Below, in pieces: positions 10,255 to 53,945 of a stretch of DNA of 64,000 bases; the stretch's first letter is position 1; every line of letters starts with the position of its first letter. The notes beneath the pieces are model-generated. The model was not told the DNA's origin. It saw only the letters and a program-made list of their open reading frames with translations, and did no database searches. Where the stretch lies: contig NZ_RYFF01000008.1 in the NCBI RefSeq assembly GCF_004138165.1, positions 1 to 64,000 of the forward strand. Reading direction: 5' to 3'. A program made the position numbers and the translations under genes. The DNA comes from Candidatus Chloroploca sp. Khr17 (lineage in GTDB: Bacteria; Chloroflexota; Chloroflexia; Chloroflexales; Chloroflexaceae).

Positions 10255-10500
10255 TGCCCCACCGTCCCCCCGTTGCGCCTTTGCGCCTTTGCGTCAAAAA
10301 ACCCACCGTCCCCCCGTTGCGCCTTCGCGCCTTTGCGTCAAAAAACCCACCGTCCCCCCGTTGCGCCTTCGCGCCTTTGCGTCAAAAACCCCCCCTCGCC
10401 CCCCCTCGCCCCCCTTCGCGCCTTCGCGCCTTTGCGTCAAAAACCCCCCTCCCCCCGTTGCGCCGTTGCGCCTTCGCGCCTTTGCGTCAAAAAAACCGTC
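10255..10500. repeat. array of five GCGCCTTTGCGTCAAAAA units
   Basis: Five copies of GCGCCTTTGCGTCAAAAA are separated by C-rich spacers (ACCCACCGTCCCCC and variants), with a period near 45-50 bp. The same core recurs at 15930-15990, 20709-20791, 57130-57160 and 59190-59260. It is not a CRISPR: units and spacers are both variants of one low-complexity sequence. No gene was seen between 10234 and 10527. Confidence 0.8.
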
Positions 10501-17824: not shown

Positions 17825-18946
17825 TCAGCCCGCCACCGTGCCACGAAGCACCACCTTTTCTACCGTGACTTGGTCAAGAAAATCCACATCAATGTCAGCC
17901 CCAGTTCCTGGACGATCAGGTACCGTCAGGGTGCTATCTGCATTGAGCACAAAGGGATTGGTGACAATATCACGGGCAAAGTAGCGCGCACTGGCACTGA
18001 TGTCACCCGGCAAGGTGAAGTTCGGCAGGCTCGCCAGGGCCACATTCGCCGCCCGGCCAATGCCCGTTTCGAGCATGCCGCCACACCAGACCGGCACGCC
18101 GGCCGCTGCCGCCATGTCGTGAATCTGACGCGCTGCGTGCAAGCCACCCACCCGACTCGGCTTGATATTGATGACCCCACACGCCCGCAACTCAAGCGCC
18201 CAGCGGGCGTGATCAGGCGAAACAATGCTCTCATCAAGACAGATTGGCGTCTGCACGATGCGTTGCAACTTGGCATGATCAAGGATGTCATCGTGGGCCA
18301 GGGGTTGCTCGATCAAGAGCAGATCGTACGCATCGAGTTTCGCCAGATGCGCCGCGTGATCAAGCGTATAGATGCTATTCGCATCAACTTGCAACCGTAG
18401 ATCAGGCCAGGTCTCACGCACAAGCCGCGTCGGCTCAAGATCCCAACCCGGCTTGATCTTCAGCTTGACCCGCTGATAGCCCGCCGCAACATAGTCGCCG
18501 ACCACGCGCAGCAGCGTATCAAGATCGGGTTGCACCCCCACACTGACCCCCACCTCGACGCGCTCACGTTGCCCCCCCAGCATCGCCCGCAGGCTCTGCC
18601 CGGTGGCCCGCCCAAAGAGATCCCACACCGCAAACTCAAATCCAGCACAGGCCATCCGATTGCCCCGCACCCGTGCATAGACCGCTGCCACATCCTCGGG
18701 CCGCGTCAACTCGGCCGCCAGCAACATCGGGGCCAGATGCTCTTGGGCCATCACCCACGCGGTACTGCTGGTCTCCTCGTTATACCAGGGGCCAGTTCCG
18801 ACTGGCGACTCGCCCCACCCGACGATGCCATCTGCCTCCACCCGCACCAGCAACGCATGGCTCGCCAATTCACGCCAGCCACTCGTCTCAAAAGGGGCCA
18901 CATACGGTAACGCAATCCGCCGAAGCTCAATCTGCTCAATCTTCAT
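17825..18946 (-). CDS. menC: o-succinylbenzoate synthase / N-acylamino-acid racemase-type enolase
   Basis: A 373-residue enolase-superfamily enzyme. The acid-base lysine motif VKLKIKPGW, metal ligands in QVDANS, IEQPL and CLDES, and the second lysine in NIKPSRVGG are all present and correctly ordered. This set matches the MenC/NSAR group, which makes o-succinylbenzoate in menaquinone synthesis and sometimes racemises N-acylamino acids. I chose the ATG at 18946 (MKIEQIEL). It starts 8 bp after the end of the cyclotransferase gene, so the two are probably co-transcribed. No other men gene is in the window, so the physiological reaction is inferred. Confidence 0.85.
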   Translation of the reverse strand: MKIEQIELRRIALPYVAPFETSGWRELASHALLVRVEADGIVGWGESPVGTGPWYNEETSSTAWVMAQEHLAPMLLAAELTRPEDVAAVYARVRGNRMACAGFEFAVWDLFGRATGQSLRAMLGGQRERVEVGVSVGVQPDLDTLLRVVGDYVAAGYQRVKLKIKPGWDLEPTRLVRETWPDLRLQVDANSIYTLDHAAHLAKLDAYDLLLIEQPLAHDDILDHAKLQRIVQTPICLDESIVSPDHARWALELRACGVINIKPSRVGGLHAARQIHDMAAAAGVPVWCGGMLETGIGRAANVALASLPNFTLPGDISASARYFARDIVTNPFVLNADSTLTVPDRPGTGADIDVDFLDQVTVEKVVLRGTVAG

Positions 18947-18954
18947 ACGGCAAC

Positions 18955-51258: not shown

Positions 51259-52446
51259 TTAATCCTTGCCAAAGCGCCGCCCAATCAGATAACACCGCTC
51301 GCCTTCCCTGGCAACGTCGGTGAGCAGGTAGCGCCCTTCGGTAAAGCCGAGTTGCTCTGTCAAGATAGTGTCGGTAACGGTGCGCCAGTGCAAGGCGAGG
51401 CCAAGATCAGTGTGTTGCATTTTCGTCCAGTCGGCAGGGATTTCGATGGCAATGGCTGCGGCGTTGCCAGGGGTGGCGATGGGGGTGAACCCGTCGTTGA
51501 GGATGGCGAGGTCGGGGAAGTCGGTCAGCGCGGCAACCGTTGACCGTCCCGGGCGTTCAACGAGACCGCCTTGCCCATGGGCCGAGCGGGGCAACCAGAC
51601 GAGGCCGAGCCGTGAGGCGGGCACGCGATTCAAGCTGTTCCGAAAGGGGTAGTAGTCTGGATAATAGGCCCCGGCTACCGCTCGCAGCCGCCCGAAGTTG
51701 AGCCTGGCATTGCCGAATTGCAGGGGATCGACGGTCCAGTGGATCAGGTCAAGCCCCTGGGCGAGCACCTGCCGGGCCTGGTGCCGCTTGAGCATGGCGG
51801 CAAGGCCCATCCGCCGTACCTCGGGCGCAATGCCCATCACTTGCGATTCGACGGCGAGATCGTGACGGTAGGGAAGATCGGCCTCGTTCAGGGCAGCAAG
51901 GCCAAAGCGGTAAAAGCCCAGCAGAAAGCCTACCACCTGATCCTGATAACGTGCCACCAGTGAGGTGGCGGGTTGAAACGATGAACTGTGCAGATCATCC
52001 GGGTAACGCGCTGCCGCTGAGCCGCCCCAGATCGCTTCGTGCAACTGACGGATCGCGGCAAGTTCGTGGGGTTCGGGGGCACCGAGGTCAAAGGGGCCAG
52101 CACGATGGTGCGAAGGAACGCCACGCGGGGGGAGGGTGGGATCATGCCAGATGAGCCGATCAGGGGCAAGCAGCGCCTCGATCGCGCCCCGAACAAGTGC
52201 GCCCGGATCGGACATCCGTGCCGTATAGAGACGCTGCCCCTCGTGTAGGCCGCGTGGAAAGAGCAGGGCATATGCGCCACTTGCCTGGTTTATGAGCAAG
52301 CGGCCACCCATCCTGGCAAACGTCGTTTTGACAAAGTAGTCGGGGAGCACCTGACCAGCCGCCGGATCGGCCTCGGCATAGAGTGTATCGATCAGGGTTG
52401 ACCAGTTGGTGGCGTCAGGCTCAATCAGGTGCCAGGTGGCGCGCAT
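51259..52446 (-). CDS. GNAT-type N-acetyltransferase (COG3375-like)
   Basis: A 395-residue protein. The GNAT core occupies about 120-260: PEPHELAAIRQLHEAIWG, TSLVARYQDQVVGFLLGFYR, VMGIAPEVRRMGLAAMLKRH (the acetyl-CoA loop in variant form) and WTVDPLQFGNARLNFGRLRA. The C-terminal 120 residues are probably a substrate domain. COG3375 members have no known substrate. The ATG at 52446 overlaps the stop of the nonapeptide-repeat gene (TAATG), implying coupled expression. The N-terminal 110 residues are unlike the family as I know it. Confidence 0.72.
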   Translation of the reverse strand: MRATWHLIEPDATNWSTLIDTLYAEADPAAGQVLPDYFVKTTFARMGGRLLINQASGAYALLFPRGLHEGQRLYTARMSDPGALVRGAIEALLAPDRLIWHDPTLPPRGVPSHHRAGPFDLGAPEPHELAAIRQLHEAIWGGSAAARYPDDLHSSSFQPATSLVARYQDQVVGFLLGFYRFGLAALNEADLPYRHDLAVESQVMGIAPEVRRMGLAAMLKRHQARQVLAQGLDLIHWTVDPLQFGNARLNFGRLRAVAGAYYPDYYPFRNSLNRVPASRLGLVWLPRSAHGQGGLVERPGRSTVAALTDFPDLAILNDGFTPIATPGNAAAIAIEIPADWTKMQHTDLGLALHWRTVTDTILTEQLGFTEGRYLLTDVAREGERCYLIGRRFGKD

Positions 52447-52724
52447 TATGCTTCACTGCTCCGCCGAGGACGCCCGAGAAGCTTGCCTGAACCACCAACG
52501 CTGAGGATCGAACCAGCACTGCCGATGCTCAAGATCGACCCGGCACTGCCGATGCTGAGGATCGAACCAGCACTGCCGATGCTCAAGATCGAGCCCGTGC
52601 TGAAAGCACTCAAGATCGACCACGCGCTAAAGGCACTGAGAATCGACCACGCGCTAAAGGCACTGAGGATTGACCACGTACTGAAAGCACTGCGGATCCC
52701 GTCACGGAGTGAAGAACGCTGCAT
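52446..52724 (-). CDS. nonapeptide-repeat protein (SILSIGSAG/SILSAFSAW)
   Basis: A 92-residue protein. After a short basic N-terminus (MQRSSLRDGIRSAF) there are about eight nine-residue repeats, first SILSAFSAW-type, then SILSIGSAG-type, ending SILSVGGSG and a basic tail (KLLGRPRRSSEA). Regular I/L/F and S/G positions suggest a stacked beta fold. I do not know its function. The ATG at 52724 has GAGG 7 bases upstream, and the stop overlaps the acetyltransferase ATG, so it is very likely a real gene. A reading frame also stays open on the opposite strand over the repeats, which is a by-product of the 27-bp period. Confidence 0.65.
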   Translation of the reverse strand: MQRSSLRDGIRSAFSTWSILSAFSAWSILSAFSAWSILSAFSTGSILSIGSAGSILSIGSAGSILSIGSAGSILSVGGSGKLLGRPRRSSEA

Positions 52725-52747
52725 TGATCTACCTCGCTGATGTCATG

Positions 52748-52756: not shown

Positions 52757-52790
52757 CACCCTATTCTATCGTGAATAGGACGGAGTTGTG

Positions 52791-53945
52791 ATGTCGATCC
52801 TGCCCTCTGGCGTACTTGATACGGCGCTCAAGCGTCGTGATGAACTCTTGACTGTGGCCGAGACGCTCGTTACCTATGATACCCCAAGTGGCGACAAAGT
52901 GCGCTGTGATGCGCTGGCCGATGAACTCGCCGCCAGGTATGCCCCTCTGGGAACCGTTGAGCGTATGAACAACCCCCAGGGCGGCGACCACCTGCGCATC
53001 CGCGTCGCCGCTCCTGGCGCAACCAGCGAGGTGAAACCGGCCTTGATCCTCTGCCACTACGATACCGTCTGGTCAGCCGGAACCGTTGCCCACCGCCCGA
53101 TGTATGTTGAAGATGACCGCGCCTTTGGGCCGGGTCTCTATGATATGAAGATCAGCCTCGCGATGGCTGAGCTTGGTCTGCAGAGCATCAAGGAGCATGC
53201 GTGGCACCTGGCACGTCCGGTTATCCTGCTGCTGACCTCCGATGAAGAGATTGGCAGCCCAACGTCGCGGGCCTTGATTGAAACGACAGCCCGTGAGTGC
53301 AATCACGTCCTGGTGCTCGAGCCTCCAGTTGAACCGCACGGCGAACTCAAGACCGCCCGCAAAGGCATCGGGATGTTCAATGTGACAATCACCGGAAAGG
53401 CGGCGCATGCGGGCGTTGAGCCAGAAAAGGGGGCGAGTGCGATCAGCGAGCTTGCCTACGAGATTCTCGCGATCCACGCGCTCGCCGATCACGCTGCGGG
53501 AACGACGACCAATGTCGGCATTGTAAAGGGCGGGACACGGCGCAATGTGGTGCCCGCCGAGGCTCGTATGGAAGTGGACGCCCGCGTCTGGACAAGTGCC
53601 GAGGCACGTCGTCTGGAAGAGGCCTTCCAGAATTTGCGGCCTGTGACCCCTGGGGTGCAAGTCGAAGCCACAGGGAGTTTCAGCCGACCGCCGATGGAAC
53701 GCACCCCTGCCTCACGCCACCTCTTTGCCGAAGCACGCCGTCTTGGGGCCGCCTTGGGCTTGAACCTCGGCGAAGGGGCAACGGGCGGCGGTAGCGATGG
53801 CAACTTCACCGCCGCCCTGGGCATTGCGACGCTCGATGGCCTGGGTTCCCCCGGCGAAGGTGCCCACGCCGAGCACGAACAGATCAGTATCTCGGGGGCA
53901 CTTGAGCGTATGGCATTGTTGATCATGCTGTTGACTCACATTTAG
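52791..53945 (+). CDS. M20-family peptidase (glutamate carboxypeptidase-like)
   Basis: A 384-residue metallopeptidase. Zinc ligands and catalytic residues are visible: LILCHYDTVW (His), GPGLYDMK (bridging Asp), TSDEEIGS (catalytic Glu and metal Glu), LVLEPP, a dimerisation domain (KAAHAGVEPEKGASAI) and GGGSDGNFTAA with late GAHAEHEQ carrying the final His. This matches CPG2-type carboxypeptidases and related deacylases. It lacks a signal peptide, so it is cytoplasmic. I chose the ATG at 52791 with GGACGGAG upstream; a GTG one codon earlier is possible. It is followed by a 25-bp-arm hairpin. Confidence 0.9.
   Translation: MSILPSGVLDTALKRRDELLTVAETLVTYDTPSGDKVRCDALADELAARYAPLGTVERMNNPQGGDHLRIRVAAPGATSEVKPALILCHYDTVWSAGTVAHRPMYVEDDRAFGPGLYDMKISLAMAELGLQSIKEHAWHLARPVILLLTSDEEIGSPTSRALIETTARECNHVLVLEPPVEPHGELKTARKGIGMFNVTITGKAAHAGVEPEKGASAISELAYEILAIHALADHAAGTTTNVGIVKGGTRRNVVPAEARMEVDARVWTSAEARRLEEAFQNLRPVTPGVQVEATGSFSRPPMERTPASRHLFAEARRLGAALGLNLGEGATGGGSDGNFTAALGIATLDGLGSPGEGAHAEHEQISISGALERMALLIMLLTHI

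Follow-up and report, generated by a model that had tools for sequence, protein, structure and literature searches.

RTX proteins are large secreted proteins whose nonapeptide beta-roll repeats bear the GGxGxD calcium motif, and left-handed beta-helices are built on a hexapeptide repeat with an 18-residue coil. The N-succinylamino-acid racemase (NSAR) pathway combines a GNAT succinyltransferase, a racemase, and an M20-type desuccinylase, and gene sets of the NSAR/o-succinylbenzoate synthase (OSBS) pathway occur in Geobacillus kaustophilus. A radical SAM TIGSVS precursor is also known. Precursors with repeating motifs that are modified by radical SAM enzymes are described in PMC9062424.

The locus studied here lies in the window, by which is meant the whole 64,000-nucleotide stretch of Candidatus Chloroploca sp. 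Khr17 DNA that was analyzed. A short gene for a Ser-rich repeat protein is followed directly by a gene for a GNAT-fold acyltransferase, and the features discussed below are as follows.

52446..52724, minus strand: serine-triad repeat protein, 92 amino acids, with a GAGG Shine-Dalgarno-like motif just 5' of its ATG
52593..52691, minus strand: aromatic half of the repeat array, residues 12–44 (SAFSTW, SILSAFSAW twice, SILSAFSTG)
52485..52592, minus strand: core half of the array, residues 45–80 (SILSIGSAG three times, then the terminal SILSVGGSG)
52446..52484, minus strand: basic C-terminal tail KLLGRPRRSSEA and stop codon
52444..52448, minus strand: TAATG stop/start overlap from the repeat ORF to the GNAT ORF, with comparable overlaps in relatives
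51259..52446, minus strand: GNAT-fold acyltransferase, 395 amino acids (PF00583, orthologues, menC-like and M20 neighbors)
52788..53945, plus strand: divergently transcribed M20 metallopeptidase/deacylase, candidate partner of the GNAT (PF01546, PF07687)
17867..18952, minus strand: MenC/N-succinylamino-acid-racemase-type gene of the enolase superfamily (TIGR01928)

The repeat protein shares a nine-residue unit with RTX proteins, but it has no GGxGxD motif, is not a large secreted protein, and has no Pfam match. Two of its nonamers together are as long as a single coil of a left-handed beta-helix (18 residues); its period, however, is 3 or 9 rather than 6, and neither a Pfam match nor a confident model places it in that fold. 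The likeness to NSAR/OSBS gene sets concerns the GNAT only, near which a menC-type enolase-superfamily gene and an M20 hydrolase are found in relatives, although the full trio is adjacent only in genome G007; we know of no counterpart of the repeat protein in such gene sets. Our preferred reading, to which we give a probability of roughly 40%, is that the repeat protein represents a self-assembling Ser-Xaa-Xaa family whose gene is coupled, for the sake of expression, to that of an amino-acid-acylating GNAT.

Results

Sequence of the repeat ORF and its junction with the GNAT gene

The array opens with a partial unit, SAFSTW (residues 12–17 of the 92-residue protein), and continues with full nonamers at residues 18–26, 27–35, and 36–44 (SILSAFSAW, SILSAFSAW, and SILSAFSTG), at 45–53, 54–62, and 63–71 (SILSIGSAG each), and at 72–80 (SILSVGGSG). 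The original prediction of eight nine-residue repeats was thus right about the pattern and about the 92-residue protein, but the count is seven full nonapeptides plus one partial. Ser occupies each third residue in 22 consecutive triads (residues 12–75); none of 20,000 composition shuffles matched this run of 22 at period 3, the shuffle maximum being 9. At the DNA level, the array was resolved by TRF as 27-bp units with scores of 126–146. The protein contains no His and a single Lys, which lies in the tail and not in the array. In both sister species, the sequence 5' of the repeat ORF is TCAGCGAGGTAG. The minus-strand junction of the two ORFs reads GAAGCATAATGCGC, so the TAA stop and the ATG start have one A in common (TAATG), and the overlap of the repeat stop with the GNAT start that had been noted earlier was thereby confirmed.

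Distribution of the repeat family

A scan of species genomes returned at least 118 relatives of the repeat protein from several phyla, 80 of which were kept. The relatives listed include Chloroflexota, Acidimicrobiia, Streptomyces, Kitasatospora, Pseudonocardia, and Rubrobacter, many cyanobacteria (Nodosilinea, Leptolyngbya, Phormidium, Microseira, and others), and one bin each of Nitrospirae and Acidobacteria. In evenly drawn samples, profile matches were obtained in 27 of 301 Chloroflexota, 11 of 244 cyanobacterial, and 24 of 296 actinomycetotal genomes, the latter two samples containing center genomes that were positive beforehand. Matches consisting of plain GSV or GAV runs, i.e. low complexity, were discarded by eye: one of the 27 in Chloroflexota (G145), four of the 11 in Cyanobacteria (G443, G487, G531, and G570), and five of the 24 in Actinomycetota (G659, G809, G831, G852, and G868). 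G531 was discarded because its locus had no family repeat ORF. Inspection left about 26/301, 7/244, and 19/296 genomes, respectively; these tallies are lower bounds since few candidates were scored per genome.

All 19 genomes reached via the loci carry the repeat protein, 17 of them at one site. The cyanobacterium G341 has two sites, on contigs C138 and C140, and G333 has two adjacent repeat stretches. A phage or plasmid origin of the gene was not supported, as no match to the repeat protein was obtained in phage and plasmid collections or viral contigs, nor in PHROGs for six members at E ≤ 0.01. Its wide distribution is established by these sequence matches, and the open-licence literature returned no description of a Ser-triad nonapeptide family; the repeat family is conserved across several bacterial phyla and apparently undescribed.

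A weak match at 37–41% identity on contig C136 of the genome to which the window belongs was set aside, as it consists of GSLVAVGDP nonapeptides and does not belong to the Ser-triad family. These repeats lie in a 128-amino acid open frame built of 27-bp units (C136:186117–186500; L070:5141–5527, minus strand).

Coding status of the repeat frame

Loss of the frame was not seen in the close relatives: in both sister species (G001 and G002, same-genus genomes), the frame and length of the repeat ORF are identical, and the prediction that the repeat DNA is coding therefore came through this comparison, with a third-position bias in its favor. The three Candidatus Chloroploca pairs differ at 30, 28, and 24 sites per 276 nucleotides, of which 24, 22, and 22, respectively, fall at third codon positions, and dN/dS values are about 0.067, 0.066, and 0.028. 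Further evidence came from 86 family members, comprising 75 from the 80 kept loci and 11 others, several of them closely related; L082, L126, and L141 (no chosen start) and L072/L073 (duplicates of G001/G002) were left out, and start codons were picked by a simple score, such that individual ones may be wrong. Three positions are preset by the unit pattern used in the search (1 and 4 as Ser, 3 as Leu/Ile), and only the remaining positions and the codons are therefore informative. Over 420 units in the 86 proteins, Ser at position 1 is encoded by TCN 211 times and by AGY 209 times, a switch that takes more than one base change. Position 7, which is free in the pattern, is Ser in 94% (TCN 115, AGY 281), and the other free positions are also kept (Ile/Val at position 5 in 81%, Gly at position 6 in 75%, and Gly at position 9 in 80% across the 86 members).

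A non-coding DNA repeat that is open only by accident might be envisaged, given that 27-bp units keep several frames open; an antisense ORF of 103 amino acids (52429–52740, plus strand) uses the same wobble positions as the repeat ORF. Residue changes in the antisense and repeat frames number 9 versus 5 in two species pairs and 2 versus 2 in the third. The third-position bias, the dN/dS values, and the switches between Ser codon classes nevertheless speak against an accidental ORF, as does its presence at a single site per genome rather than as dispersed copies, and with the codon evidence we regard this reading as ruled out, its residual probability being close to nil. Judged from these comparisons, the repeat ORF is a genuine, conserved protein under strong purifying selection.

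Family anatomy

Members share a layout in which a variable start leads into aromatic Ser triads, followed by a SILSIGSAG-like core and a basic tail. Aromatic residues account for 149 of 1466 residues ahead of the first SIGS, compared with 46 of 3731 in the 45-residue stretches that follow it. Charged residues are rare in the arrays (62/4778; 1.3%), and in the tails Lys and Arg outnumber Asp and Glu in 78 of the 86 members. Of the 86 last units, 19 have Gly as their seventh residue, as opposed to 7 of 426 inner units, as if the last unit were a cap. A strongly hydrophobic, transmembrane-like tail segment was found in 12/86 members, mostly actinobacterial, and further actinobacteria beyond the 86 also have one. 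The actinobacterial loci L254–L261, L114, L149, and L097 have a SLWSxDSxLSIGS start and/or a C-terminal transmembrane segment, which suggests a tail-anchored subfamily.

Neighbors of the repeat gene

Twenty downstream neighbors were compared with Pfam, and 13 matched, nearly all to different families (SDR twice; PALP, RNase HII, TIR, PPK2, DUF4058, HEAT, and others); upstream, 9 of 10 neighbors matched, again to different families. When the ORFs of the 80 loci were compared all versus all, no cluster extended beyond a clade, the largest covering 7/80 loci from close cyanobacteria, and no recurrent neighbor was seen at 20 further actinobacterial, cyanobacterial, and Chloroflexota loci. Weak recurrences may be missed by this comparison because the longest-ORF caller yields spurious antisense ORFs in GC-rich DNA. 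At the loci compared, the repeat protein is a genomic loner with no neighbor that recurs across phyla.

At seven cyanobacterial loci (L099, L100, L102, L105, L106, L109, and L110), the repeat gene lies 3' of a same-strand SMC_N/AAA-type ATPase gene, an assignment that rests on one tested member of the seven.

Relationship between the repeat gene and the GNAT gene

Orthologues of the GNAT (E ≤ 1e-40) were found in 17 of 301 genomes of the phylum sample, all within the family to which the window belongs. Among 22 orthologous GNAT loci, the repeat gene is present in 9, a remnant in 1, and neither in 12. The repeat ORF lies 5' of the GNAT in G000, G001, G002, G012, G014, G005, G020, G007, and G096, and the remnant in G311 is a degenerate repeat piece that overlaps the GNAT start region. 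A search for other pairs, which the original prediction had proposed, thus gave the repeat gene beside the GNAT at 9/22 loci and the GNAT alone at 12/22. In a GNAT tree of 20 loci and two outgroup rows, presence of the repeat requires five changes, at least three of them forced by well-supported branches. The distribution is read as an ancestral pair with several losses because the repeat gene sits at the same position, although the tree alone would also allow several gains.

Stop and start codons overlap in Chloroploca, G012, G096, G005, and G020, so that the predicted translational coupling of the repeat ORF to the GNAT holds across several related genera. The overlap is retained in G005 and G020, where about two repeats are left, down from about eight or nine, and a gap of about 100 nucleotides separates the two ORFs in G007. 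The retained overlaps and the position of the G311 remnant over the GNAT start region are what would be expected of a translational leader, in which translation of a Ser-rich short ORF alone matters and either delivers ribosomes to the GNAT start or senses Ser supply. We consider this rather unlikely, as non-Ser residues are conserved across phyla, coupling to a following gene is lacking in most family members, G007 has its gap, and neither the SILSIGSAG core nor the basic tail would be needed by a pure leader.

Direct coupling kept in several genera would also suit a functional pair, in which the repeat protein is either a substrate, acylated by the GNAT on Ser or Lys, or a factor that stabilizes or scaffolds the GNAT. 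The substrate-enzyme or chaperone relationship originally proposed is not supported, however: 12 of 22 loci have the GNAT but no repeat gene and one more has it with a remnant, the GNAT tree needs the five changes described above, repeat proteins mostly adjoin other, unrelated genes, the array has no Lys, and the neighbors of the GNAT are amino-acid metabolism genes. Such a pair is very improbable, and the repeat protein probably neither feeds nor chaperones the GNAT. The comparison of loci instead establishes, at the level of sequence, two genes that are coupled and yet separable, and under the preferred reading, with a self-assembling repeat protein and an amino-acid-acylating GNAT, coupling would serve expression and would not mark a substrate.

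The GNAT and its likely pathway

The window GNAT matched PF00583 weakly but above cut-off (22.3 bits versus 20.7), the G014 orthologue also reached the cut-off, and the G005 orthologue gave no PF00583 match at E ≤ 0.001. COG3375 is a label for GNATs of this type. The menC-like gene of the window scored 314.5 bits with TIGR01928 (cut-off 200.65) and lies 32 kb from the GNAT. Window proteins were then used as queries over 20 GNAT loci. An M20 gene is near the GNAT at 5/20 loci (G000, G001, G002, G012, and G007), being kept beside it in G001, G002, G012, and G007, and a menC-like gene at 4/20 (G014, G007, G018, and G270). One or both are near the GNAT at 8 of the 20 loci, with both adjacent only in G007, and neither is within the covered flank at 12, flank lengths differing among loci.

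Because it is often near an M20 or a menC/NSAR-type gene, the GNAT most likely acts on amino acids. It is probably an amino-acid N-acyl(succinyl)transferase that works in an NSAR-type pathway, a role that we infer from its neighbors and from the known pathway; the open-licence literature returned no paper confirming a GNAT-racemase-M20 trio. The analysis frees the GNAT of a misleading substrate hypothesis and suggests that phototrophic Chloroflexota may have an amino-acid acylation step, which can be tested.

Profile searches of the repeat protein

Neither the window protein (E ≤ 1) nor 10 relatives (E ≤ 0.1) matched Pfam, and PDB searches returned just Ser-Gly linkers and other low-complexity stretches, with no resembling solved structure. 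A weak match to the NCBIfam model HxsA4 (NF038313) was obtained for the window protein (16.1 bits) and for 9 of 10 relatives tested (best, 28.8 bits), against a cut-off of 55. With HxsA family proteins such as HxsA4, the repeat protein shares small size and period-3 Ser repeats as well as this weak match in most proteins tested. It differs in having no His, in scoring far under the cut-off, and in the lack of an HxsB match over cut-off (12 genomes) and of a linked radical SAM gene. Membership of the Hxs family was rejected on the score, on the absence of His-Xaa-Ser triads, and on HxsB, for which no match over cut-off was found in 12 genomes and sub-cut-off matches occur in 14/14 control genomes too.

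A short repetitive core with a weak HxsA4 match could still belong to a precursor of a modified peptide (RiPP-like), comparable to the His-Xaa-Ser or TVGG precursors matured by radical SAM enzymes. Repeating-motif precursors of that kind are known (PMC9062424). This reading is improbable given the HxsB result (0/12 genomes), a CxxxCxxC ORF at 1 of 80 loci, repeats without His, and no recurrent maturase among the neighbors, although a maturase could be encoded elsewhere.

Structure and proposed mode of action

AlphaFold2 models of the window protein (61-row alignment; mean pLDDT 49.0, pTM 0.18) and of a single-sequence relative with a cleaner array (mean pLDDT 52.8) were both of low confidence, and neither contained strands. 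The window model has a weak helix over residues 5–44, giving the aromatic half helix rather than strand. In the absence of a confident fold and with helix in the aromatic half, the idea of a solenoid has no positive structural support, and the low-confidence models leave the 18-residue coil argument for it as arithmetic only. The stacked beta structure or self-assembly originally suggested gains no support from these models, nor do they contradict it.

A membrane-inserted helical protein, with small-xxx-small packed helices that generalize the transmembrane tail of some members, would account for the nearly uncharged array, the basic tail in 78/86 members, the transmembrane-like tail in 12/86, and the model helix over residues 5–44, low in confidence as it is. 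Against this, the array runs uninterrupted for 60–100 residues without loops, the models are of low confidence, and, with Ser strictly at every third residue and a helix turning every 3.6 residues, Ser would not line one helix face. We regard a helical membrane protein as distinctly doubtful.

The preferred reading, a self-assembling protein coupled for expression, would work as follows. The family has four zones: Ser triads with aromatic residues come first, then the core array, in many cases a closing SILSIGGxG unit, and last a basic tail, which in some actinobacteria is replaced by a transmembrane segment. The uncharged array, made up largely of Ser, Ile, Leu, Gly, and Ala, would assemble homotypically. 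A pair of its nonamers, at 18 residues, would be the right length for a single coil of a beta-solenoid or cross-beta polymer, and the polymer would be deposited in the cytoplasm or at the membrane. In the window, the repeat ORF would be the first cistron of a short operon with its translation coupled to the GNAT, which would N-acylate (succinylate) amino acids together with the M20 and menC-like enzymes in an NSAR-type pathway. Assembly as the function of the repeat protein is a conjecture.

A wider and tentative reading, which we hold to be possible though unlikely, is that of a minimal self-assembling family that crosses phyla, present as one gene per genome and inherited or exchanged independently of partners, which would form a beta-polymer of a new kind, inside the cell or attached to the membrane, that may serve in signaling or structure. 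The same tentative reading takes in that the lineages concerned (Chloroflexota, leptolyngbyoid and other cyanobacteria, and streptomycetes) include many filamentous or multicellular bacteria. A related idea is that amyloid-signaling motifs are enriched in the same phyla as the repeat family. Should the repeat protein assemble, it would rank with the simplest repeat polymers in nature, having one triad rule, no cofactor, and tunable length, and would lend itself directly to biochemical work. Small low-complexity proteins are commonly skipped by annotation; the core residues of this family are nearly unchanged across phyla, yet the resources searched hold no name, structure, or paper for it. The family deserves a name and is more interesting as a widely spread family than as a local gene pair.

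Other repeats in the window

Two further tandem arrays were noted in the window: a perfect heptanucleotide repeat, CTATTTC, in 11.4 copies at positions 400–479, and a GC-rich degenerate array with units of 44–50 bp at positions 10258–10493.
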